Source: Candidatus Finniella inopinata
Lineage (GTDB): Bacteria; Pseudomonadota; Alphaproteobacteria; Holosporales; Holosporaceae
Direction: 5' to 3'
NCBI GenBank assembly: GCA_945888455.1
Contig: CAMCZV010000002.1
Location: 62,001 to 126,000 of the forward strand
Length of the DNA stretch: 64,000 bases
Shown: piece after piece, positions 4,149 to 16,797 of the stretch
Layout of the letters: each line of letters starts with the position of its first letter
Numbering within the stretch: the first letter of the stretch is position 1
Notes under the pieces: model-generated
The model's input: the letters and a program-made list of their open reading frames with translations, nothing else
Database searches by the model: none
What the model was told of the DNA's origin: nothing
Position numbers and translations under genes: made by a program

Positions 4149-4333
4149 ATAAATGGCCAAAAACAGCATGGAGTTCCTCAGTATATCCCAATCCGTGTGG
4201 ATCATACCAGGGAGAGCTTGCGCCATTGGCTGGTAACTCTTTTGTACAGTTTTAGAAAATTTTTGGCTGTCGCCGTTGAATTATTGTTGAGAATATGGTA
4301 TCTAGAGAGAGTTATTTTTTATTGGTAAGTTTT

Positions 4334-5572
4334 ATGGCGAAAGAAAAATACGTTCGAACGAAACCACACGTGAACGTTGGAACCATTGGTCACGTTGACC
4401 ATGGTAAAACAACTTTGACCGCAGCGCTGACAAAATACTCAGCGGATAAAGGTTTGGCTCAATTCCAAGGCTATGATCAAATTGATAAGGCTCCGGAAGA
4501 AAGAGCCCGTGGTATTACCATTTCTACCGCGCATGTTGAATATGAAACAGCGGCACGTCACTATGGTCACGTGGACTGTCCTGGACACGCTGACTATATT
4601 AAGAATATGATTACAGGTGCGGCTCAGATGGACGGTGCGATTTTAGTCGTTGCGGCTACTGATGGTCCTATGCCACAAACAAGAGAGCATATTTTGTTGG
4701 CTCGCCAGGTAAACGTTAAGAATATCGTTGTGTTTTTGAACAAAATTGATATTGCTGATCCTGATTTGGTGGAATTGGTGGAAATGGAAGTCAGAGAGCT
4801 GTTGAGCAGCAACGGATTTCCTGGCGATGATATTCCTATCATTCATGGTTCTGCGACTATGGCATTAAGTGGTGATGCTGGGCCATTGGGTTCCCTTGCG
4901 ATGGAGAAATTGCTGGCTGCGTTGGATTCCTATATCCCTATTCCAGAAAGAGACATTGAAAAGCCATTTATGATGCCTGTTGAAGACGTCTTTTCTATTT
5001 CAGGTCGCGGAACCGTGATGACGGGTAGAATCGAGCAAGGAATCATCAAAGTTGGTGATGTGGTCGAAATTGTTGGATTGCGTCCAACCCAGGAAACCAC
5101 TGTAACGGGCGTTGAAATGTTCCGCAAAGAGCTGGATTCAGGTCAAGCCGGTGACAACGTCGGTATTTTGGTTCGTGGGTTAAAGAGAGAAGACGTAGAG
5201 CGTGGACAAGTTGTGGCCAAAAAAGGCACCATAAAGCCCCATGTTCGTTTTGAGTGTGAAGCTTATATTTTGACCAAAGAAGAGGGTGGTCGTCACAGTC
5301 CGTTCTTTACCAACTATCGTCCTCAGTTTTATTTCAGAACAACGGACGTAACAGGTGCAGTTGAATTGCCTGCGGACAGAGAAATGGTGATGCCTGGGGA
5401 TAACTTAAAAATGCAAGTAGAGTTGATTGCTCCGATTGCGATGTCTGTTGGATCTCGCTTTTCTATTCGTGAGGGTGGAAGAACCGTTGGATCTGGTATC
5501 GTAACCGAGATTCTTGAGGCTGCTGCTCCTGCTGCTGGCGCAAAAGCCGCCGCTGCAAAGGCTAGGGGGTAA
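4334..5572 (+). CDS. tuf: Elongation factor Tu
   Basis: GTP-dependent carrier of aminoacyl-tRNA to the ribosome. G1 is GHVDHGKT, G3 is DCPGH (with the catalytic His) and G4 is NKID; domains 2 and 3 follow in full. The start at 4334 ([12 protein letters not shown]) fits the family, while the upstream in-frame ATG at 4295 would add 13 unlikely residues. The protein is 412 residues, longer than the usual 394-400. The extra length is an Ala/Gly/Lys tail after the normal end ([10 protein letters not shown]), rich in alanine. It heads the S10 ribosomal-protein cluster, with only 2 bp before the rpsJ start. The fusA/rpsG/rpsL genes that usually precede it are absent. Confidence 0.96.
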
Positions 5573-5574
5573 TT

Positions 5575-5877
5575 TTGAACCAGAAAATTAAAATGCGTTT
5601 GCGGAGTTATGATTATCGTGTACTGGATCGTGCAGTCAGCGAAATCATGGACACCGCGCAAAGGACAGGGGCTCGTGTACGGGGCCCTATCCCGTTGCCT
5701 CAAAAAATTCATAAATTTACGATTTTACGATCTCCGCACATTGATAAAAAGGCGCGGGATCAGTTTGAGCGTAGAACATACAACCGACTTTTGGAGGTAG
5801 ACTGCACTTCTCAAACGCTAGAGGCGTTGATGGGGTTGACAGTGGCTTCTGAAGTCGAGGTGGAGATCAAGGTATGA
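5575..5877 (+). CDS. rpsJ: 30S ribosomal protein S10
   Basis: A 100-residue S10, also the NusE antitermination partner in the family. Recognisable segments are [11 protein letters not shown] near the N-terminus, [19 protein letters not shown] in the middle and the closing [15 protein letters not shown] start at 5575 is preferred: it is preceded by an AGGGGG purine run lying across the end of tuf, and it supplies the few residues that usually precede the first beta strand. An ATG at 5593 is the alternative. Translation is probably coupled to tuf upstream and to rplC downstream, where the genes overlap by 4 bp. Confidence 0.93.
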
Positions 5878-6581
5878 GTACTCAACGTTCTGGAATGATT
5901 GTTAAAAAACTAGGCATGACAAGGGTTTTCATGGATTCAGGAGAAGCATGCCCTGTAACCCTGCTTTCCATAGAAGGGTGCACGGTCGTGGCAGTCAAGA
6001 AAACCAATGATGGCCAATTGACATCACTGCAAGTGGGCAGCGGAAAAGCCAAAAATGTTACAAGGCCTATGCAAGGTCATTTTTCCAAGTCCAGTGTAGA
6101 GCCAAAGAAAATTTTACGCGAGTTTCGCGTCGATTCTGATAAGGAAATCCCTGTTGGATCTGTTTTTCAGGCTGATTATTTTGAAAAGGGCTGCTGGGTA
6201 GATATTTCGGGGATAACCATTGGTCGAGGTTTTGCTGGTGCCATGAAGCGTCACAATTTCTCGGGGCTTCGGGCTTCTCACGGTGTGTCTGTTTCCCACA
6301 GAAGCCATGGTTCTACGGGGCATCGAAAAGATCCTGGAAAGGTTTTCAAGGGCAAAAAGATGGCCGGCCATATGGGGTGTCAAAAAATAACCGTTCAAAA
6401 TGTCAAAGTCATTGATTTTGATATAGAGCGTGGTTTGATTGTGGTGAAGGGAAATATTCCCGGATATGAAGGGGGTTGGGTGACCATTCGGGATGCGGTG
6501 AAAAAACCGGCTCATCCAAAAGGTCTTCTAGACGGGGTGAAGATTTCATCCATTGAGGGTAGCGCAGCAGAAGCTGTTTAA
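5874..6581 (+). CDS. rplC: 50S ribosomal protein L3
   Basis: 235 residues. The first domain opens with [15 protein letters not shown] and the central loop region contains the conserved [10 protein letters not shown]...[15 protein letters not shown] and [14 protein letters not shown] segments that reach the peptidyl-transferase centre. The C-terminus matches the L3 fold ([22 protein letters not shown]). It overlaps rpsJ by 4 bp (ATGA) and lies 30 bp before rplD, in the standard S10-operon order. Confidence 0.95.
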
Positions 6582-6611
6582 TTTTTTATTTTTGTATTAA
6601 GGTGAGTTATA

Positions 6612-7235
6612 ATGTTAAAAGTTCCTGTTCGAAATTTTCAAGGGGATGCCCTTGAAGAATGTTCTGTTTCTTCAGAAGTTTTTGCGGCGCCTATTCGCAA
6701 GGATATTCTTTCGCGTGTTGTGCAGTGGCAGCTAGCCAAGCGTCGGTCTGGCAATCACAAAGCTAAGGGTATCAGTGACATTTCGGGAACGACAAAAAAG
6801 CCCCATCGTCAAAAAGGAACGGGTCGCGCCCGTCAAGGTTCTTTGCGCTCTCCGCATATGCGAGGTGGAGCTGTGATTTTTGGCCCAGTAATTAGGGATC
6901 ACAGTTTTTCTTTGCCTAAAAAGGTTCGTAAAATGGGTTTGCGTTGTGCATTATCTGCGCGGATGAAGGAAAATAAATTGTTTGTGATGGACGATCTTTC
7001 CATGGAGAGTAGAAAAACAAAGGACGTCGTTCATGCTTTTTCTGGTTCTGTGCTGATGATTGGCGGAGAAACGGTGTGTCAAAATTTAAAAAATGCCATT
7101 TCCAATGTTCATTCTTTGAATTTACTGCCTCGACACGGGATTAATGTATATGATATCCTCAGACACGATCAATTGATTTTATCGAGAGACGCCGTTCGGT
7201 ATCTTGAAAACTTTTTGTCTGTTTCTTCGGACTGA
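6612..7235 (+). CDS. rplD: 50S ribosomal protein L4 (L4/L1e)
   Basis: 207 residues, normal for L4. The conserved tentacle region is clear: GTTKKPHRQKGTGRARQGS followed by RSPHMRGGAVIFGP. In the family L4 lines the exit tunnel and in some bacteria represses its own operon. The start follows a GGTGAG Shine-Dalgarno 8 bases upstream. The C-terminal half, which packs on the ribosome surface, is more divergent than the loop. Confidence 0.94.
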   Translation: MLKVPVRNFQGDALEECSVSSEVFAAPIRKDILSRVVQWQLAKRRSGNHKAKGISDISGTTKKPHRQKGTGRARQGSLRSPHMRGGAVIFGPVIRDHSFSLPKKVRKMGLRCALSARMKENKLFVMDDLSMESRKTKDVVHAFSGSVLMIGGETVCQNLKNAISNVHSLNLLPRHGINVYDILRHDQLILSRDAVRYLENFLSVSSD

Positions 7236-7298
7236 GGGTGTCAAAATTTTAAGACCAGTGGGCGTTAGCAGAAAAAAGTTTTATCAAAGAGGAAAAAG

Positions 7299-7637
7299 AT
7301 GGTTCATCGTTATGTTATTCGAGATCGACACAAGAATTTATCGCAAGAGACATTGTATCAAGTGATAAAAAGACCCATTGTGACGGAAAAATCCACTATA
7401 GGAAGAGAAAAAGGGCGATACTTTTTTGTAGTAGAGTCTTGGGCCACAAAATTTTTTATTAAAACAGCCGTGGAAAAGATTTTTAATGTCAAGGTAAAGG
7501 CAGTGAATACGTCGACATTAAAGGGGAAAACAGTGCGGTTTAAGGGCCGTTCTGGAGTTCGATCTGATGTCAAAAAGGCAATGGTTTCTCTTCAGGATGG
7601 ATATTCGATTGATCTTGAAAAAGGAGAAATGGCATGA
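7299..7637 (+). CDS. rplW: 50S ribosomal protein L23
   Basis: 112 residues. The L23 core begins at [13 protein letters not shown] and includes the exit-tunnel loop [21 protein letters not shown]. It carries about 20 extra N-terminal residues compared with most bacterial L23 proteins; a GAGGAA purine run before the ATG at 7299 supports that start. The stop overlaps the rplB start (ATGA), so translation is coupled. It sits in the normal L4-L23-L2 order. Confidence 0.92.
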
Positions 7638-8452
7638 CATTGAAAAAATATAACCCGACGACGTCATCCCAGCGTGGTTTGGTTTTAGTAGACTATTCTG
7701 GTCTTTGGAAAGGAAAGCCTTTTAAAAAATTGACTTCTGGTAAAAAAAGCACAGGGGGTCGAAGCCATGGACGCATTACGATGCGCCATCGCGGGGGTGG
7801 TCATAAAAGATCATATAGACAGATTGATTTTAAGAGAAAAGATTCTGAGGTAGAGGTTCAGCGCGTAGAGTACGATCCAAATCGCAGTGCGTTTATTGCT
7901 TTGGTTCAAAATACAGAAACCCAAGAGCACTCTTATATTATTGCTCCAGATACTGTTGGAATTGGAGATCGATTGGCCTCTGGAAATTCAACGGAGATCA
8001 AGGTTGGAAATACGTTACAATTAAAAAATGCTCCGGTTGGATTGTCGGTTCATAATATAGAGCTAAAAATTGGAAAAGGCGGGCAGTTGGCTCGTGCTGC
8101 GGGGTCTTGGGCTCAGATTATGGGTAGAGATAGTGGGTACGTTTTGTTAAAACTGCCATCAGGTGAAGTTCGTCGGGTGCATGGAGAGTGTCGTGCGACG
8201 GTTGGTATTGTGTCTAATATCGACTTGAAAAACCAACGCATTGCAAAAGCGGGTAGAAATCGCTGGTTAGGATGGAGGCCTGCTGTTCGTGGTGTGGCCA
8301 TGAACCCAATTGATCACCCTCATGGTGGTGGAGAAGGAAAAACATCTGGTGGACGTCATCCTGTTACACCTTGGGGTAAGCCTACAAAGGGTTACAAGAC
8401 AAGGAACAAGAAAAAGTCGTCTTCTAAATTTATTATTAGTCGTCGTAAATAA
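7634..8452 (+). CDS. rplB: 50S ribosomal protein L2
   Basis: 272 residues, standard length. The RNA-binding segments [17 protein letters not shown] and the C-terminal [20 protein letters not shown] are intact, including the His of HPHGGGEG that lies near the peptidyl-transferase centre in the family. The C-terminus ends in a basic [18 protein letters not shown] tail. It starts inside the last codons of rplW. Confidence 0.96.
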
Positions 8453-8463
8453 AGGATAAAATT

Positions 8464-8739
8464 ATGACTCGATCCGTTTGGAAAGGTCCTTTTGTAGATG
8501 GATATCTTTTGACAAAAGTACAAAAATTGCGTGCATCTGGCAGACAGGACCCTATCAAAACTTGGTCCCGTAGGTCCGTGATTTTGCCTCAGTTCGTTGG
8601 GGTGACATTTCACGTCTATAATGGGAAAAAATTTATACCTGTTTTTGTAACAGAGGAAATGATTAACCACAAATTGGGGGAATTTTCTCCAACTCGTGTG
8701 TTTCATGGCCATTCTGGCGACAAAAAAGCAAAAAAATGA
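8464..8739 (+). CDS. rpsS: 30S ribosomal protein S19
   Basis: 91 residues with the S19 opening [15 protein letters not shown], the central [23 protein letters not shown] and the closing [17 protein letters not shown]. It sits at the small-subunit head, contacting S13 in the family. The start follows a TAAAGGATAAAATT stretch with a usable AAGGA. The position between rplB and rplV is standard. Confidence 0.96.
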
Positions 8740-8761
8740 TCAGAAAAACTAGGGAAAGAAT

Positions 8762-9112
8762 ATGTATATGAATCAAGCGCGAGCTTCTTTGAATATGTTG
8801 CGCATCAGTCCGTATAAGTTGAATGAAGTAGCCAAGCCCATACGTAAAAAATCCGTTGCCGAAGCCATTGCTTTGTTAAAAGGCATGAGAAAGCGATCCG
8901 CTCATGATGTTTATAAAACATTAATTTCAGCCGTTGCAAATGCAAAAAACAACTTTGATTTGGATGTAGATCAATTGATCGTAACAGAGGCAACCGTTGG
9001 TCGTGCCATTGTTTTGCGTCGTATGGATATCAAGGGCCGCAGCAGAATGGGTAGAATTACTAAGCCATTTAGCCATTTGCGCGTTGTCCTGACCGTTGAT
9101 CCAAGCCTATAA
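8762..9112 (+). CDS. rplV: 50S ribosomal protein L22, last gene of a truncated S10 operon
   Basis: 116 residues. The L22 core runs from RASLNMLRISPYKLNEVAK to the long hairpin segment ending GRAIVLRRMDIKGRSRMGRITKPFSHLRVVLT, which lines the exit tunnel in the family. Start codons at 8762 and 8768 are both possible; a GGGAAAGAA run precedes them. Normally rpsC, rplP and rpmC follow at once. Here none does: the final 14 or so codons plus about 90 bp of downstream sequence are repeated in tandem, and an unrelated AT-rich cassette comes next. Confidence 0.95.
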   Translation: MYMNQARASLNMLRISPYKLNEVAKPIRKKSVAEAIALLKGMRKRSAHDVYKTLISAVANAKNNFDLDVDQLIVTEATVGRAIVLRRMDIKGRSRMGRITKPFSHLRVVLTVDPSL

Positions 9113-9337
9113 AAATAGGGTGTTGTATAGGCGCTTGACCTTTTGATTTGTGATTTCTGTCTTAAAATCTTGGTCAAGCGGAGCAGCATTTAATTTAACT
9201 TTTAGCCATTTGCGCGTTGTCCTGACCGTTGATCCAAGCCTATAAAAATAGGGTGTTGTATAGGCGCTTGACCTTTTGATTTGTGATTTCTATCTTAAAA
9301 TCTTGGTCAAGCGGAGCAGCATTTAATTTAACTTTTA
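9068..9337 (+). repeat. 133-bp tandem duplication carrying the rplV 3' end
   Basis: Bases 9068-9204 recur at 9201-9337, an offset of exactly 133 bp with one visible difference (G at 9158, A at 9291). Each unit contains the last codons of rplV with the stop, then two inverted repeats: GCCTATA/TATAGGC around 9104-9131, and CGCTTGACC/GGTCAAGCG (arms at about 9132-9140 and 9172-9180). The near-identity suggests a recent event. Either hairpin could stop transcription leaving rplV, although neither is followed by a strong T run. The second copy leaves a non-coding piece of rplV. Confidence 0.95.
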
Positions 9338-9378
9338 TGCTGTCTAGAATATATATTACTTTTGTTTTTATATAAAAA

Positions 9379-9413
9379 CACAGAAATAATAAAAAATTTT
9401 TCAAATTTCTGTG
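9379..9413 (+). promoter_or_regulatory. Inverted repeat in the control region of the accessory cassette
   Basis: CACAGAAAT at 9379-9387 is matched by its exact complement ATTTCTGTG at 9405-9413, a perfect 9-bp repeat with a 17-base AT-rich spacer. A TATGAT that could serve as a -10 box follows at 9415-9420. A second TATGAT lies at 9475-9480, and the 15-mer TTTTATATAAAAACA occurs at 9366 and again at 9457. Together these suggest an operator/promoter region for the genes from 9559 onward. No regulator gene is adjacent, so the role is inference. Confidence 0.45.
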
Positions 9414-9558
9414 CTATGATCTTCAAAGCGCAGTTTAAGGGAAACAAACTTTTAAATTTTATATAAAAACATCATATGATACAGTTTTTACAAAAAAAAT
9501 GCATTTTGCACCATGCTATATAAAAATAGAACAATTTATAAAAAACTTCTCTTGTGCA

Positions 9559-10353
9559 ATGAATTTTAAAAAAAACCAATCCAAAAGTTCGATCTTGTTA
9601 TTTTTATCAAGAAGAGTAACCATTTTTATGGTGTCACTGTCGGTATATTGTTTTTCTGCATCCACCCATGGGCATAATCAAAATATCCTAATCATAGGAG
9701 GAAGTTCAGGGATCGGAAAAGCCCTTGTAGCAGCATATTCAGAATCAAATTACAATGTATATACAACATTTAATAATACGAATCCTGATAAAACCCACAA
9801 GAATGTGGCCTATCTTAACATTAATTTAATTGATCCGAAAAGTATTCAGACTCTATCAGAGGCTTTTAAAGGTGTTAAATTCGATATTATTATTTATAAT
9901 GCAGGAAAATTTGGTTATCAATCAAACAAGGGGCCCATACTCGATCGTCAAGATTGGATTGATTCATTTGTAATTAACGCGATTGCACCAATAGAAGTCG
10001 CTTTTGCTTTAGAAAAACAATTTATAGAAAAAGGTGGAAAATATGTTGTCATTACGAGTAGAAGAGGAAGTAATGAAACCAATATTAAGGATCAGTATGA
10101 GGGAAGGTATTCTTATCGTTCGTCAAAATCTGCTGCGAATTCTGCATTAGTAGCCTTGGCTATGGATCTGAAAAAAAGAGGCGTTACAGTGTTAATGCTG
10201 CATCCTGGGCAAGTAAAGACAGAAATGACAGAATATAAAGGAATGGAACCTAATGAAAGCGCTGCGCTGATACAAAAAACCATTTCATTAATGTCATTGG
10301 TGGATACGGGAAAATTTATAGATGTCCAAAATAATCGCGAAATGCCTTGGTAA
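9559..10353 (+). CDS. Short-chain dehydrogenase/reductase with a possible N-terminal signal
   Basis: Classical SDR fold. The nucleotide-binding glycine motif is GGSSGIGK, the central NAG is in YNAGKFG, and the YxxxK catalytic pair is in YSYRSSK with a preceding ITSRRGS serine region. The C-terminus (HPGQVKTEMT) is family-typical. The substrate cannot be told. Before the Rossmann fold lies a basic stretch and a hydrophobic segment (about residues 24-36) resembling a signal or membrane anchor, which is unusual for an NAD(P)-dependent SDR. Starting at ATG 9628 would shorten it but keep most of the hydrophobic part. The gene is visibly AT-richer than the ribosomal genes, which suggests acquisition. 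Confidence 0.75.
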   Translation: MNFKKNQSKSSILLFLSRRVTIFMVSLSVYCFSASTHGHNQNILIIGGSSGIGKALVAAYSESNYNVYTTFNNTNPDKTHKNVAYLNINLIDPKSIQTLSEAFKGVKFDIIIYNAGKFGYQSNKGPILDRQDWIDSFVINAIAPIEVAFALEKQFIEKGGKYVVITSRRGSNETNIKDQYEGRYSYRSSKSAANSALVALAMDLKKRGVTVLMLHPGQVKTEMTEYKGMEPNESAALIQKTISLMSLVDTGKFIDVQNNREMPW

Positions 10354-10384
10354 CAAAGGTGACATGTGCCAGAGAGCAAATCCT

Positions 10385-10726
10385 ATGCATCAAAAGAAAA
10401 TAGCTCTTGTTACGGGCGCCTCTTCTGGAATAGGCAATGCCTTGGTGAACGAATTGCTGTTGCAAGGTTGGGTTGTGGTTGGTCTGGCGCGATCTGAGAA
10501 AAAGCTGGATGAAATCAAAAACACAATGGGGAATCTAGGAAATCTGTTCATGCCCATGACGTGCGATCTTTCCAATCAATCTGATACGAGTAGGGTGTAT
10601 CAAAATATTCTTGATCAGGGCCTTTGTCCAACGGTGTTCTTTTTGAATGCAGGCCTGGCAGGCAATCAGATCGTTGAAAATCCGGAATACTTAAATTCTG
10701 ATGAAGATGATAGTCAATCTAATTAA
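10385..10726 (+). pseudogene. Truncated short-chain dehydrogenase
   Basis: Begins as a clear SDR (ALVTGASSGIGNALVNELL, then an LARSEKKL segment and FFLNAGLAG) but ends after about 113 residues in an acidic tail. The catalytic Ser and YxxxK half is missing, so it cannot be an active SDR. It lies 31 bp after the complete SDR yet is not a close copy of it: its base composition is closer to the chromosome and its sequence matches a different SDR branch. Probably the 5' remnant of a gene cut when the downstream cassette arrived. Confidence 0.7.
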
Positions 10727-10737
10727 TGGAGTAATAT

Positions 10738-11151
10738 ATGGATTATACAAAAATTTCGAAAGATACAATAGGCCATTTATATGCAGGATATAAAAGCTTC
10801 GACGCATCACCGCTGGCCGCTGATTTAAAGGCGTTGATAGAATTGCGTGTATCTCAAATCAATGGCTGTGCCTATTGCTGCAATCTACACAGAAATGAAG
10901 CAGTAAAATTAGGGGTTAACCAAGATAAAATTGAGAGTTTATCTGAATTTACCGCATCTAGCTTATTTTCTGATGCTGAAAAAGAAGCCTTAAAATGGGC
11001 AGAATCTTTAACTAGGCTTGATGGAAATAAGAAGGTTCAGAATACAGAGCTTTCAAAATATTTTGGCGAAAGAGAAATTGTCGATATTACGATTTGTATT
11101 TCTCTGATGAATGCGTTTAATCGCTTGGCAATAAGTATGAGAGACGAATAG
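10738..11151 (+). CDS. AhpD-like / carboxymuconolactone decarboxylase family protein
   Basis: 137 residues, all-helical CMD/AhpD core. The peroxidase-type motif CAYCCNLHRNEA has the CxxC...H arrangement of alkylhydroperoxidase-like members, preceded by a typical LRVSQINGC helix. The family includes reductants of peroxiredoxin partners and uncharacterised proteins; no AhpC is nearby. A GGAG Shine-Dalgarno precedes the ATG by 7 bases. The stop at 11149-11151 is followed directly by the next start, so this and the next two genes form a tight translational chain. Confidence 0.8.
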   Translation: MDYTKISKDTIGHLYAGYKSFDASPLAADLKALIELRVSQINGCAYCCNLHRNEAVKLGVNQDKIESLSEFTASSLFSDAEKEALKWAESLTRLDGNKKVQNTELSKYFGEREIVDITICISLMNAFNRLAISMRDE

Positions 11152-11940
11152 ATGAACAGCGCAAATTCATTAAAATTAATAACATTAAACATATGGGGTG
11201 GTCATGTTGAAGGGCCCCTGCTTAATTTTGTAAGATCAAAACAAGATATTGATATTTTTTGCTTTCAAGAGGTGTATTGCAAAGCAAAAGCAAAAATTAG
11301 CGATGAAACAAGGTATATCAACCTTGATATATTTTCCGAAATTCAGAGTTTATTGCCAAATCATACCGGATATTTTAGGCCTGTAGTACAAGGAATATAT
11401 GGTATCGCTATGTTTGTCAAAAAGCATTTGCTTGTAATAGAAGAAGGAGAGCGCATTATCCATGCTAATGATAATTACATAGGTATTGGCCCAACTCACT
11501 CTAGAATATTGCAATATGCAAAAATTGAATATAGCAGCCAAAGACTCACTGTGATTAACGTGCATGGGCTATGGAATGGCATGGGTAAAGGAGATAGCGC
11601 CGAGAGAATTGAGCAATCGCTTAAGATAAGAAATTTCTTAGATTCTGGAAGTGACCATAAGATCTTATGTGGAGATTTCAATTTAAAGCCAGATACCAAA
11701 AGTTTGGAGATTTTAGCGAAAGGGATGAATGATCATATTAAAATGAGTAGTGTTCAATCTACTAGAACCTCTTTTTATCCCGGGCTAGAGCGATTTGCAG
11801 ATTATATCTATACCTCTAAAAACGTCGATGTTCAAAATTTTCAAGTTTTACCAGAAGAAATATCTGATCATGCGGCATTGCAAATTGATTTTACAATTGC
11901 AGATGGGAAGGCAACGACAGAAATCAGGAAAGAGTTATGA
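11152..11940 (+). CDS. Endonuclease/exonuclease/phosphatase family hydrolase
   Basis: 262 residues of the EEP (DNase I-like) fold. Visible family motifs are LNIWGG near the start, CFQEVY with the metal-binding Glu, INVHGLW with the catalytic His, LCGDFNLKP with the Asp-Asn pair, and SDHAAL at the end. The family covers DNA nucleases and lipid or inositol phosphatases; nothing here decides between them, and no signal peptide is seen. It abuts the CMD gene and overlaps the GNAT gene by 4 bp (ATGA), in an AT-rich block. Confidence 0.82.
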   Translation: MNSANSLKLITLNIWGGHVEGPLLNFVRSKQDIDIFCFQEVYCKAKAKISDETRYINLDIFSEIQSLLPNHTGYFRPVVQGIYGIAMFVKKHLLVIEEGERIIHANDNYIGIGPTHSRILQYAKIEYSSQRLTVINVHGLWNGMGKGDSAERIEQSLKIRNFLDSGSDHKILCGDFNLKPDTKSLEILAKGMNDHIKMSSVQSTRTSFYPGLERFADYIYTSKNVDVQNFQVLPEEISDHAALQIDFTIADGKATTEIRKEL

Positions 11941-12974
11941 ATCATATCTTATCAGAGTTAAATAATATGAATAAAAGAACAAAGGTTATAGTCAGACGCT
12001 ATCAAGATGTGGATGCCAAACATATTGCTAGTATTTATTATAACACTATACATACAGTCAACGCCAAAGATTACACTAAAGAGCAGCTTAATGCTTGGGC
12101 TCCATACCATGATAATTATGCTGCTTGGCAAGAAAAATGTTCAAAGCTCAATCCTTTCGTTGCTGTAATAGATGATACAATAGTTGGTTTTGCAGAGTTT
12201 GAGCCAAATGGCCATATCGATTGCTTTTATGTCCATCATAAATTTCAAGGTGCTGGAGTTGGTACGGCTCTTATGCGTGAAATTGAGATGGAAGCGAGAG
12301 AAAAATTATTACCTCGCATGTATGCAGAAGTCAGCATTACTGCCAAACCATTTTTTGTGGGCAAAGAATTTCAAGTGATAAAGCCACAAACGGTGCAGGT
12401 TCGTGGCATGGAACTGACAAATTTCGTTATGGAGAAATGCTTTGTAACTTGCGAATCCCTATCATCAGATCATATCGCATCTATGACTGAGGCTTTTAAA
12501 AAAATCGGCTGGAATAAACCCGTATCGCTTTTCGAAGGATATTTAAAAGAAGTAGAGCAAGGAGCGCGACTCGTTTGGATGGCTTACTTCAAGGGCGAAT
12601 TTGCCGGTTACGTAACCTTGAATTGGCAATCACAATATCCGTCATTTAAAGGTCAAAACATCCCAGAGATTATGGATTTAAACGTATTGCCGGTCTATCG
12701 AAAAATGGGCATTGCTTCCTTGCTGCTTGATCGTGCTGAAAAAGAAGCGCTAACAAAAAGCGAAGTTGTGGGCATCGGTGTTGGTCTATATGCAGGTGAA
12801 GATGGTGGCTATGGATCGGTTCAAAGGCTTTATGTAAAGCGTGGGTATATCCCTGACGGTAAAGGTGTTACTTATAATTACCAGCCAGCAATACCTGGCA
12901 ATAGCTATCTGCTTGATGATGCACTGGTGCTGTGGTGGATGAAGAAATTGAGGAACCACGCATCATTAGACTAA
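11937..12974 (+). CDS. Protein with two fused GNAT acetyltransferase domains
   Basis: 345 residues. The first GNAT domain (about 15-160) has an acetyl-CoA loop FQGAGVGTALMREIE after a FYVHHKFQ strand. The second (about 170-325) has VLPVYRKMGIASLLLDRAE and a late aromatic VKRGYIPDG segment. Two different GNAT units in one chain occur in antibiotic- and small-molecule-modifying enzymes, but the substrate is unknown here. Translationally coupled to the EEP gene through ATGA. Base composition is AT-rich in the first half and closer to the chromosome in the second, so the fusion might join genes of different origin. Confidence 0.8.
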   Translation: MNHILSELNNMNKRTKVIVRRYQDVDAKHIASIYYNTIHTVNAKDYTKEQLNAWAPYHDNYAAWQEKCSKLNPFVAVIDDTIVGFAEFEPNGHIDCFYVHHKFQGAGVGTALMREIEMEAREKLLPRMYAEVSITAKPFFVGKEFQVIKPQTVQVRGMELTNFVMEKCFVTCESLSSDHIASMTEAFKKIGWNKPVSLFEGYLKEVEQGARLVWMAYFKGEFAGYVTLNWQSQYPSFKGQNIPEIMDLNVLPVYRKMGIASLLLDRAEKEALTKSEVVGIGVGLYAGEDGGYGSVQRLYVKRGYIPDGKGVTYNYQPAIPGNSYLLDDALVLWWMKKLRNHASLD

Positions 12975-13163: not shown

Positions 13164-15461
13164 TCAAGCGCGGCTATAGTCTTCCATCAAGGAATGTCGC
13201 CAGGTGAAATCTCTATTCAAAAAGTGGACCCGATGATGGGGATCAATGCACGTCAGTAAAATCCAGCCGTGGCCAAACAGTTTTTGCAAAACGGGTTCAG
13301 CCGATACAATAGAGTCCAAAACAGCGCGAGGCCCATGAACCACCACATTTAGTCGAAGAGGCTGATGATACGGATCCGTATCCGTTCGATAAACCGATTG
13401 CAGAGGCAATCCCGTCATTAAATCACTGGCCACCCCCTGCATCACACCAATTTTACCTGTAATGTTTTTCGTTATTTTGCTGCCCGAACCATAGGCCACA
13501 GGGTCAGACGTAGAGAACAAATACTGGTTGTTAATCCACTGGGCGACCACCATCGGCGCGGTTAAAATGCCCTTTAAAATATGGCCGTCCTTATCCTGGT
13601 CATGCTCATAGGAATGTAAAAAGACCCGACCCTGTAAATCCGTGTTCTTTGAAAGGGATCGTGGTCCAATAATAAAGCTGGCATTGCGAGCCAATCCCCA
13701 CTCTGGTCGAATTTGCGACCAATCATTGCTGCGCTTTTGTACATGCCTGGAACAAGCGGCCTGATCCCCGTAAAATCCCATGGTTTTACAGCGTTTTTGG
13801 GCATTTGCCATGCGGACATGAATTAAATGCTCGCGCAAAGTTTCTATAATGGGCATCATCTGGGGAGGGGGAGCATCACCCAAACAGGATTCATACAATT
13901 CCATGACATCTGTTGTGGTGTTATGCTCTGCGGCGATACAGCGTGTTATTTCAGGAATAACAATGCCCACCGTTGCCAGATGGGCTCTGACCTTGGGATT
14001 ATTTAAAATAAGGGCTAAAATTTTAGCATTATGTGAACCGTGTTGCCCACCACACGCCCCGCAATGTAAAAGGCTGGCATAAGCATTATTTTCTGTCGTG
14101 CTCCCATGTCCGCAAAGGACCAAAACAGGTGCAAAATTTGAAATCAATCCGATGTTGCGTAAGGCAAATTCCGCATATTGACATTGATCGGCCAGAGAAA
14201 TGTGTTCAATCGTTGGCATCATATCCACGGGTGAACGAACAAGAGCAGCCAGTTTTTGTCTGATTTGAACAGATTGCACAGGAAAGATGGTTTTAATCGC
14301 CATCCAAATGCCCGAAAAACCACCCAAACATTCCACCAAGGCAAAGGCCGTACCAATGTTGTATTTCAAGGATTGATAGGCATTCTTAAAAATCGACAAT
14401 CGCCCATACCCTGCAGCATCACGCAGACGTAATGCTGTGGAAATGGGGCCTTCTTTGACGTAATATTTGGGCTGTAATAAGACAGGGCATGATGCAAATT
14501 TTTGTCCGGTTGTGGTGTTGCAAATGCCAATGGGTAAACCAAAAAATCCAGAAAAACCAAAGGTTTCATACGGGCCTGTGCGTTCTAAAATCCCTCGAAA
14601 TGGTTCTGATCGCACATCAATGCAAAACACCAACTGGGCATGAATGGATGCTGCATACTGGCCTGAATCATCCCCACCGTTGGCCTCCCCACCTGTACCC
14701 ACCGCGCCACCATCATCCCCTGTACCAACCCTATTTAGGGACAATTCCTGCAAAAGATTGGCCATATAAGACAATTCGTTTTTCTCTATTTCTGCCAGAG
14801 GGCAGGGAGTTGTCCGCGCATCATCCAAACACCGTGTGTGCCATGCCAACAGATCTGGCATGGCCCTAGGCCACATCAGACGTGTCATGATCAATCGAAG
14901 GGCCAGATAATCCGTTTTCAAGGATTGCTGTGCCCCATCGTCATGCACCCGATATTGTATGTGTCCAGCCCAACCAGGCAGCGTGGTTAACATCAGGGTT
15001 AAAAATAATGGCAGCTGGTGTTCTGGAATGTGCCATTCTGACAGCACCTGAATGATGGCGCCGCATGCCGATTTGGGTAGGTTTTTCAGCCACAATTTCT
15101 TAGCTTGATCACCTTCGTGGATGTATTGATCAAACCAGGCCAGCTTTTTCCAGGAAGCATACAGGCCAAGGTGCCGCATGGGCATGTTTAACGTCGCTTG
15201 ACCACCATCAAAAAAGGCCTGCATCCATTTAATGGTTTGTCGATTGATCGCCCCCATGGCATCGGGAAAATCCGCGTATTGGAATAGGGCATTGGCCTTG
15301 ATCAAGGCTTGCTCTATGGGAAAATCTTCCAATCCTTGTAAAGGATTGATGGATACCAGATTGCGCAGTGGCCAAAAGGGAGCAATGGTTTTCCAAGCTT
15401 CCTGGATCATAGGATTGATCTGCTTTTCCAAAAGCGGCATAGCATTGTTATACATAATCAT
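13164..15461 (-). CDS. dabA: DabA-like inorganic carbon transporter subunit (DUF2309/YbcC family)
   Basis: 765 residues of the DUF2309 family. The zinc-site residues known from DabA are all visible: Cys280 and Asp282 in VFCIDVRSEP, His452 in CGHGST and Cys467 in LLHCGACGG. In characterised systems DabA, a beta-carbonic-anhydrase-like subunit, works with membrane subunit DabB to convert CO2 to trapped bicarbonate using the proton gradient. A glycine/aspartate-rich insertion sits at residues 244-266, just before the Cys/Asp motif. The start overlaps the dabB stop by 14 bp, so the two are coupled. Function is by family; operation in this organism is untested. Confidence 0.9.
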   Translation of the reverse strand: MIMYNNAMPLLEKQINPMIQEAWKTIAPFWPLRNLVSINPLQGLEDFPIEQALIKANALFQYADFPDAMGAINRQTIKWMQAFFDGGQATLNMPMRHLGLYASWKKLAWFDQYIHEGDQAKKLWLKNLPKSACGAIIQVLSEWHIPEHQLPLFLTLMLTTLPGWAGHIQYRVHDDGAQQSLKTDYLALRLIMTRLMWPRAMPDLLAWHTRCLDDARTTPCPLAEIEKNELSYMANLLQELSLNRVGTGDDGGAVGTGGEANGGDDSGQYAASIHAQLVFCIDVRSEPFRGILERTGPYETFGFSGFFGLPIGICNTTTGQKFASCPVLLQPKYYVKEGPISTALRLRDAAGYGRLSIFKNAYQSLKYNIGTAFALVECLGGFSGIWMAIKTIFPVQSVQIRQKLAALVRSPVDMMPTIEHISLADQCQYAEFALRNIGLISNFAPVLVLCGHGSTTENNAYASLLHCGACGGQHGSHNAKILALILNNPKVRAHLATVGIVIPEITRCIAAEHNTTTDVMELYESCLGDAPPPQMMPIIETLREHLIHVRMANAQKRCKTMGFYGDQAACSRHVQKRSNDWSQIRPEWGLARNASFIIGPRSLSKNTDLQGRVFLHSYEHDQDKDGHILKGILTAPMVVAQWINNQYLFSTSDPVAYGSGSKITKNITGKIGVMQGVASDLMTGLPLQSVYRTDTDPYHQPLRLNVVVHGPRAVLDSIVSAEPVLQKLFGHGWILLTCIDPHHRVHFLNRDFTWRHSLMEDYSRA

Positions 15462-16797
15462 ATCCTCTGCGATTGTCTGTGATGGTTTTGGGGTAAGGTT
15501 GACTGCTGTTCAGCATTTTAACATACAAAAATAGGGCCCAATGGGGAAAAAATCGTGTTTTTTTATCGTATTTCAAAAACAAAACCAGAATCCAGACCAA
15601 TGCCAATACACACAGCGCAACCAGATGCAGCGGCCGTACATTTTGAATCGCCATGGGTTGTAAATTGGGCCACAATGGTGAACACAAGCGATCAAAGTAA
15701 TGCACATTTAGACCGTACAGGGCCGAAAAGGCTGTGCTGACCACTAGGGCAAAGGGGGCTCTTTTAATGGATTTGGTGGACAGAATAGACAGGGATAATT
15801 GGGTGCTGGATATCCAAACCACACCCAAAATAACCACTCCTGCATCCCATTGGGTATGATGGCTGATTTTGGCAAAGACAAGAGTGGATAAACAGCCATT
15901 GAAAAATGAGAAAAATAGGGCTGGAACAAAAGGATAATGATCCAAATCTTTTCGTTTTTCCTTGCCCGCATTGCCCGAAGATAAAAACAAATAGGCTTTG
16001 AACAGGCCATGCCAGCAAATGTGGGCCAAAGCAGAGGTAAAGACACCCAGGCCGATTTGAACAAACATAAATCCCATCTGAGCAATGGTCGAGCAGGCCA
16101 GCATGCGCTTGATGTCATTTTGAATGACCTTCCAAAATGATCCCATCAGTGTGCTGAAAAAGCCCACTATAAAAATGGTGTTCATAAGCGAAGTGTTGTT
16201 GGCATACAATGGGGCAAATCGCAACAATAAAAAACCGCCACCATTGACCACACCGGCGTGCATCAGAGCCGATACAGGCGTCGGCGCATTGACCGAGCTG
16301 ATTAACCAACGGTGAAAGGGGTATGGGGCAGATTGGGTCATGGCTGCCAGGATAATGGCCACTGAGGCAAGACCTATGGGCCAAGAATCCAAGGGGGTTT
16401 GGATGATGTCTTGAATGATCAGGCTGCCTGTGGCGTAATACATCAAAGAAAGGGCAGTTGCCAGAAAACTGGTGCCCAAGATCAATTGAATCAGCGCCAT
16501 TTTTCCTGAAAATCGAGCCGCTGACCATGTGGTTTTATGGGCGATCATGCGGGACAATGTCACATTGCATACGCACCAGGCCCCTAAAAGCAGAACCACA
16601 TGATTGGCCATGCTGATGGTGATCACGGATGCAATGAGCACCGCCATTTGGATAAAAAAGATGCCGTATCGGCGATCTCCTTGAAGATAGTTTTTTGAAA
16701 ACAAGGCCACCAAGACACCAATGCCGCTGACCACCCCCATCATGACGGCCGATAGGGTGTCAATATATATCCATTCAGAGGGGGTAAATAGGGACAT
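15448..16797 (-). CDS. dabB: DabB-like membrane subunit (NuoL/MrpA-type proton channel family)
   Basis: 449 residues with about 12 hydrophobic helices, resembling the proton-conducting subunits of complex I and Mrp antiporters (APYPFHRWLISSVNAPTPVSALMHAG is the family hallmark, with the conserved Lys/His positions around it). Shorter than NuoL (about 600 residues) and paired directly with the DUF2309 gene, which points to DabB rather than a complex I subunit. No other nuo or mrp genes are nearby. It lies 27 bp after lptC on the same strand, so probably part of one kdsD-lptC-dabB-dabA transcript. Confidence 0.87.
   Translation of the reverse strand: MSLFTPSEWIYIDTLSAVMMGVVSGIGVLVALFSKNYLQGDRRYGIFFIQMAVLIASVITISMANHVVLLLGAWCVCNVTLSRMIAHKTTWSAARFSGKMALIQLILGTSFLATALSLMYYATGSLIIQDIIQTPLDSWPIGLASVAIILAAMTQSAPYPFHRWLISSVNAPTPVSALMHAGVVNGGGFLLLRFAPLYANNTSLMNTIFIVGFFSTLMGSFWKVIQNDIKRMLACSTIAQMGFMFVQIGLGVFTSALAHICWHGLFKAYLFLSSGNAGKEKRKDLDHYPFVPALFFSFFNGCLSTLVFAKISHHTQWDAGVVILGVVWISSTQLSLSILSTKSIKRAPFALVVSTAFSALYGLNVHYFDRLCSPLWPNLQPMAIQNVRPLHLVALCVLALVWILVLFLKYDKKTRFFPHWALFLYVKMLNSSQPYPKTITDNRRGYDYV

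Follow-up and report, generated by a model that had tools for sequence, protein, structure and literature searches.

An old, clade-wide split of the S10-spc cluster in Holosporales and a 133-bp tandem repeat beside one of its cuts

In the genome of Candidatus Finniella inopinata (G000; 810,702 bp in eight contigs) the S10-spc cluster of ribosomal protein genes is fragmented. This fragmentation is old and clade-wide, and it predates a 133-bp tandem repeat that stands beside one of the cuts in the stretch analysed here (G000:C2:62001-126000, 64,000 bp, referred to as the window). The repeat itself is a young or artefactual tandem copy. We consider it highly probable that two unrelated events happened at one place, first the ancestral cuts in the cluster and, much later, a local duplication of 133 bp. 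Keeping the old split and the young repeat apart avoids a false story of ongoing rearrangement.

Genes were identified in tblastn searches with proteins of E. coli K-12, and the E. coli gene order served as reference. Within the window, the first block of S10 genes follows tuf and ends with an intact rplV (Table 1); by the same naming, neither rpsC nor any later S10 or spc gene was found after rplV, in agreement with an earlier note on this DNA, which had reported rpsC, rplP, rpmC and the spc genes to be missing there. The note had also expected the rest of the operon to be elsewhere with a new promoter. Indeed, an unbroken middle block of 11 genes (rpsC-rplP-rpmC-rpsQ-rplN-rplX-rplE-rpsN-rpsH-rplF-rplR) lies 36 kb away, preceded by its own promoter-like site, with rpsC starting 142 bp past the rho stop codon. 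A third block, rpsE-rpmD-rplO-secY-adk, is located on contig C4, and the L17 gene, used as marker for the alpha genes, on contig C3. Three blocks and a detached L17 gene imply that the cluster exists in at least four pieces. The cuts fall inside S10, between rplV and rpsC, and inside spc, between rplR and rpsE, and the standard gene order is retained within every block.

Table 1. Features of the window and of the relocated middle block. Positions are those of the window unless a contig is given.
Feature	Position	Strand	Remarks
tuf	4295-5572	+	opens block 1; tuf also precedes rpsJ in G002, G003, G004, G005-G008 and G014
S10 block 1 (rpsJ rplC rplD rplW rplB rpsS rplV)	5575-9112	+	named by tblastn with E. 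coli K-12 proteins
rplV	8762-9112	+	intact, last gene ahead of the break; 96% identity in G001 and G002
133-bp unit, copy 1	9068-9200	+	last 14 rplV codons, stop codon and 88 bp beyond
Hairpin	9132-9180	+	in copy 1, arms CGCTTGACC (9132-9140) and GGTCAAGCG (9172-9180); likewise 9265-9313 in copy 2
133-bp unit, copy 2	9201-9333	+	one mismatch to copy 1
Promoter-like TTGACC-17-TATCTT	9268-9296	+	in copy 2; copy 1 (9135-9163) has TGTCTT
TTTA	9334-9337	+	identical to the unit's four starting bases; microhomology of the kind expected for slippage duplication
AT-rich cassette	9499-12974	+	after the break; SDR oxidoreductase, 134-aa SDR fragment, CMD/AhpD-like, EEP phosphatase/nuclease, GNAT
rpsC..rplR block	G000:C2:34728-39308	same as S10 block 1	36 kb upstream, same contig

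To place the split in time, ten genomes of the order were compared, of which G000, G001 and G002 form one genus (g1) and G004 represents the sister genus (g3). In these four genomes the cluster is cut at the same two gene boundaries, rplV being separated from rpsC and rplR from rpsE, and rplV adjoins rpsC in the other six (G003, G005, G006, G007, G008 and G009). A phylogeny based on 21 concatenated proteins (3,706 aligned positions) unites g1 and g3 in a clade with 100% ultrafast bootstrap support, so that one event on its stem suffices for each cut. This does not agree with the earlier note, in which a recent rearrangement or insertion was suspected, as the cut is common to all three g1 genomes and the sister genus at the same boundary. 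In a class-wide sample (240 genomes searched, with rplV present in 220 and rpsC in 219), the rplV-rpsC junction proved very stable: the two genes adjoin in 118 of the 118 genomes with both positions among the matches listed and none breaks the junction, a comparison that includes 12 rplV rows added by hand and outside which the low-scoring genomes lie, among them the sample's three split ones (G000, G002 and G004). The L17 gene stands apart from the cluster in all genomes of the order but G008. A different break was observed in G009 (L049, L080), where the S10 run stops after rpsQ and rplE..adk follows about 50 kb on; rpsJ and tuf were not found ahead of rplC in the stretch of this genome that was examined.

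Transcription of the middle block very likely depends on a predicted sigma-70-type promoter, TTGTCA-17-TATGAT, which matches the consensus at 10 of 12 positions, lies 32 nt ahead of the rpsC ATG and is kept in three species. Its two near-consensus hexamers are separated by a distance within the 16-18 nt typical of this class. Such a hexamer match alone is near chance (one promoter-like site in the 501-bp scan before rpsC vs. 0.8 expected); conservation is the stronger argument for a promoter. A run of 110 bp, composed of the last 66 bp of the rho-rpsC gap and the rpsC start (L002 10662-10771), is without differences in G000, G001 and G002, and in the rho-side half of this gap conservation among the same genomes is 65-72% in windows of 60 bp. 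Moreover, a site scoring 9 or 10 of 12 is positioned 30-32 nt ahead of rpsC in all four split genomes, and no site scoring at least 9 of 12 was found in the same 120 bp before rpsC in any of seven intact genomes. The site of G004 is weak, 41 of 300 shuffles being as good. Homology of the G004 and g1 promoter regions was not supported, as 2218 of 5000 randomly drawn G004 stretches reached their local alignment score of 15; as far as can be judged from these alignments, the two upstream regions are similar in layout only.

The gene ahead of rpsC is rho in g1 and a divergently read gene in G004. Such differences in the neighbours of the moved blocks between g1 and G004 indicate further change around these blocks once the cuts had occurred. 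Because the rpsC neighbour in G004 is not rho and the relation of its upstream region to that of g1 is unsupported, it is formally possible that this boundary was cut twice independently. Other candidates in the rho-rpsC region were discarded: the only match to a known structured RNA was a chance-level hit to SNORD96 (E 0.75, 18.5 bits vs. a gathering score of 43), and tblastn gave no rplV remnant in the gap. By eye, a short open frame (L002 10680-10727), identical in the three species, overlaps the promoter-like site and ends shortly ahead of rpsC. A tmRNA gene at L002 17136-17523 was flagged tmRNA* by ARAGORN and read as the permuted type.

We propose that the S10-spc cluster was broken within both operons in the common ancestor of g1 and g3, leaving three internally intact blocks, tuf-rpsJ..rplV, rpsC..rplR and rpsE-rpmD-rplO-secY-adk. 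Each block would form its own transcription unit, and the middle one would be driven by the putative sigma-70-type promoter ahead of rpsC. A clade with both cuts, intact blocks and an apparently conserved promoter-like start constitutes a natural test of the importance of contiguity for ribosomal protein dosage. Searches of the literature on ribosomal operon order, on Holosporales genomes and on short tandem repeats did not find the split in Holosporales, although an earlier description elsewhere is possible; the survey by Coenye and Vandamme from 2005 would be the one most likely to contain similar cases.

Compared to the S10-spc-alpha cluster, each of the three blocks has the same standard order, but the breaks go beyond the operon borders into S10 and spc, and the L17 gene of alpha is detached. 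In Gammaproteobacteria and Bacilli, a stepwise disconnection has been described that begins with the insertion of a few genes between operons, which a second event then separates (PMC8046335). The present blocks resemble these cases, as described there, in parting at gene boundaries with a foreign-looking cassette at the cut; unlike them, the cuts lie within operons, and the cassette may or may not have come first, an AT-rich stretch taking its place at the cut in G004. In Aquifex aeolicus, the main ribosomal operons occupy different places in the genome and are relocated relative to each other (PMC3879981). A scattering similar to the one described there is found here, with the difference that the operons are cut internally and in a small alphaproteobacterial genome.

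Directly at the cut, the 133-bp unit with the last rplV codons is duplicated with one difference, as the earlier note had described. The sole mismatch between the copies is 9159 G vs. 9292 A, and the array, including the trailing TTTA, comprises 270 bp or 2.03 copies. No other tandem array in the window reaches a period of 50 bp, and the 266-bp sequence of this one occurs at one place in the whole 810,702-bp genome, which argues against a chance repeat. As it has this one place only, the unit was rejected as a transposon, a MITE, or a dispersed palindromic or other mobile element. Copy 1 leaves rplV whole. Copy 2 contains the 14 codons and the stop without a start codon and thus encodes nothing.

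Slippage at short direct repeats yields head-to-tail tandem copies. The 133-bp repeat is like such duplications, with no difference seen: its copies lie head-to-tail, the short direct repeat TTTA is present at both unit ends, and the single-copy state preceding a duplication is found in a relative. This relative, G002, has the same cut and the same DNA after rplV with a single copy of the unit, which differs from the window copies by 13-14 mismatches and one gap, compared to one difference between the window copies. G002 agrees with copy 2 at the differing site, suggesting that copy 1 is probably the one that changed. In the simplest case, slippage between two TTTA tetramers would have duplicated the rplV tail and the DNA beyond it in tandem in the G000 lineage, far later than the cuts. 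The repeat amounts to one event, with no selection shown.

A single recent rearrangement that both cut the operon and produced the duplication as its scar, as the earlier note had suggested in linking the two, is highly improbable. The repeat does have one end within the rplV tail, directly at the cut, with 99% identity between its copies. However, the cut is common to four genomes in two genera, and G002 carries it without the repeat, which already refutes a scar unless G002 lost one copy exactly. Furthermore, the unit is absent from the 5' flank of rpsC, where its presence had been proposed as a check: the rho-rpsC gap shares no match longer than 13 bp with the window, and the matches lead to unrelated places. 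All three relatives that share the split have it as an old split without repeats, which the earlier note had itself named as a refutation.

A second tail repeat was identified in the genus. In G000, a 72-bp repeat of the final accB codons follows directly past the stop codon, with one difference (L002 4978-5049 and 5069-5140, G000:C2). In G002 the accB tail is likewise repeated at this junction, again with 91-bp spacing (L055, from 2875 and 2966), and G001 has a remnant of the repeat there (L056 2116-2240). The accB copies differ at 1-2 of 72 positions within G000 or G002 and at 9-10 between the genomes. As they are closer within than between genomes, repeat copies in this genus can undergo homogenisation or turnover, and this pattern implies that the 99% identity of the rplV copies alone gives no date. 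The single copy in G002 says more on the age of the repeat than the identity of its copies.

The accB repeat also bears on whether the second rplV copy exists at all. A true chromosome with one copy and a G/A variant, duplicated by assembly or strain mixture, is unlikely. Such an artefact would fit a repeat that rests on a single 8-contig assembly, with a unit and an array of about short-read length, copies that differ at one site, and relatives with one copy or none. On the other hand, the copies meet at the TTTA microhomology, like real slippage products, and the accB tail repeat at the same junction in separate genomes means that such repeats are real in the genus. We consider it unlikely that the duplication is old, with gene conversion or unequal exchange preserving the similarity of its copies and a collapse to one copy in G002. 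The accB tail, with its similarity within genomes, its divergence between them and its constant spacing, gives a precedent for this, but an exact loss would be needed in G002, and also in G001 where the region is gone, so that a single gain in G000 is simpler.

Tentatively, a process ongoing in the genus might copy gene tails past the stop codon and keep the copies alike, with accB and, in G000, rplV as its instances; we regard this as a possibility only. If true, the rplV unit would be a snapshot of a small array gaining, losing and homogenising copies, and homogenisation would work on tracts of only about 72 bp in a reduced genome. In 333.5 kb of the genome, 12 pairs of near-tandem repeats were detected (at least 35 bp, at least 88% identity), most of them overlapping predicted open frames.

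We further considered whether the extra copy was retained because it gives the S10 transcript another hairpin at its 3' end or the SDR cassette another promoter, which is quite unlikely. The unit folds better than shuffled sequences: the z-score is -4.3 in copy 1, -3.5 and -2.9 in two cuts of copy 2, and -2.8 in the single copy of G002. It also contains promoter-like hexamers, and the sole site differing between the copies sits in the -10 element, whose counterpart in G002 reads TATATT. However, promoter-like sites in the repeat region are at chance count (4 found vs. 4.0 expected). A terminator scan found no intrinsic terminator after rplV (0 vs. 1.0 expected), and the hairpin was rejected as one since its stem lacks a T run; no Rfam match was obtained in window positions 8700-9700. 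As there is no terminator-like tail and no Rfam match, and the promoter-like sites are at chance level, no function was assigned to copy 2. The second copy of what we regard as a young or artefactual repeat is probably functionless.

The AT-rich cassette that the earlier note had seen after the repeat is recognisable by composition: the gap at 9334-9630 has 22.6% GC, and the cassette genes have 37.7% vs. 42.9% for the S10 genes. The cassette region of G002 contains two SDR genes and one GNAT gene, and no CMD/AhpD-like or EEP gene was found at the corresponding place. The second SDR gene encodes 134 aa in G000 (10322-10726) vs. about 263 aa in G002 (L046 6845-7636). In G001, the stretch after rplV was lost, with decayed SDR remnants kept; by eye, part of this decayed region, about 0.5 kb after rplV (L045, minus strand), resembles rplW. 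Further downstream in the window, at 13164-16797, a DabA homologue (PF10070) adjoins a DabB-like protein of the proton-antiporter family, and the pair is probably an inorganic carbon transporter. It also adjoins the S10 block in G001 and G002 and is unexpected for a genome of this size.
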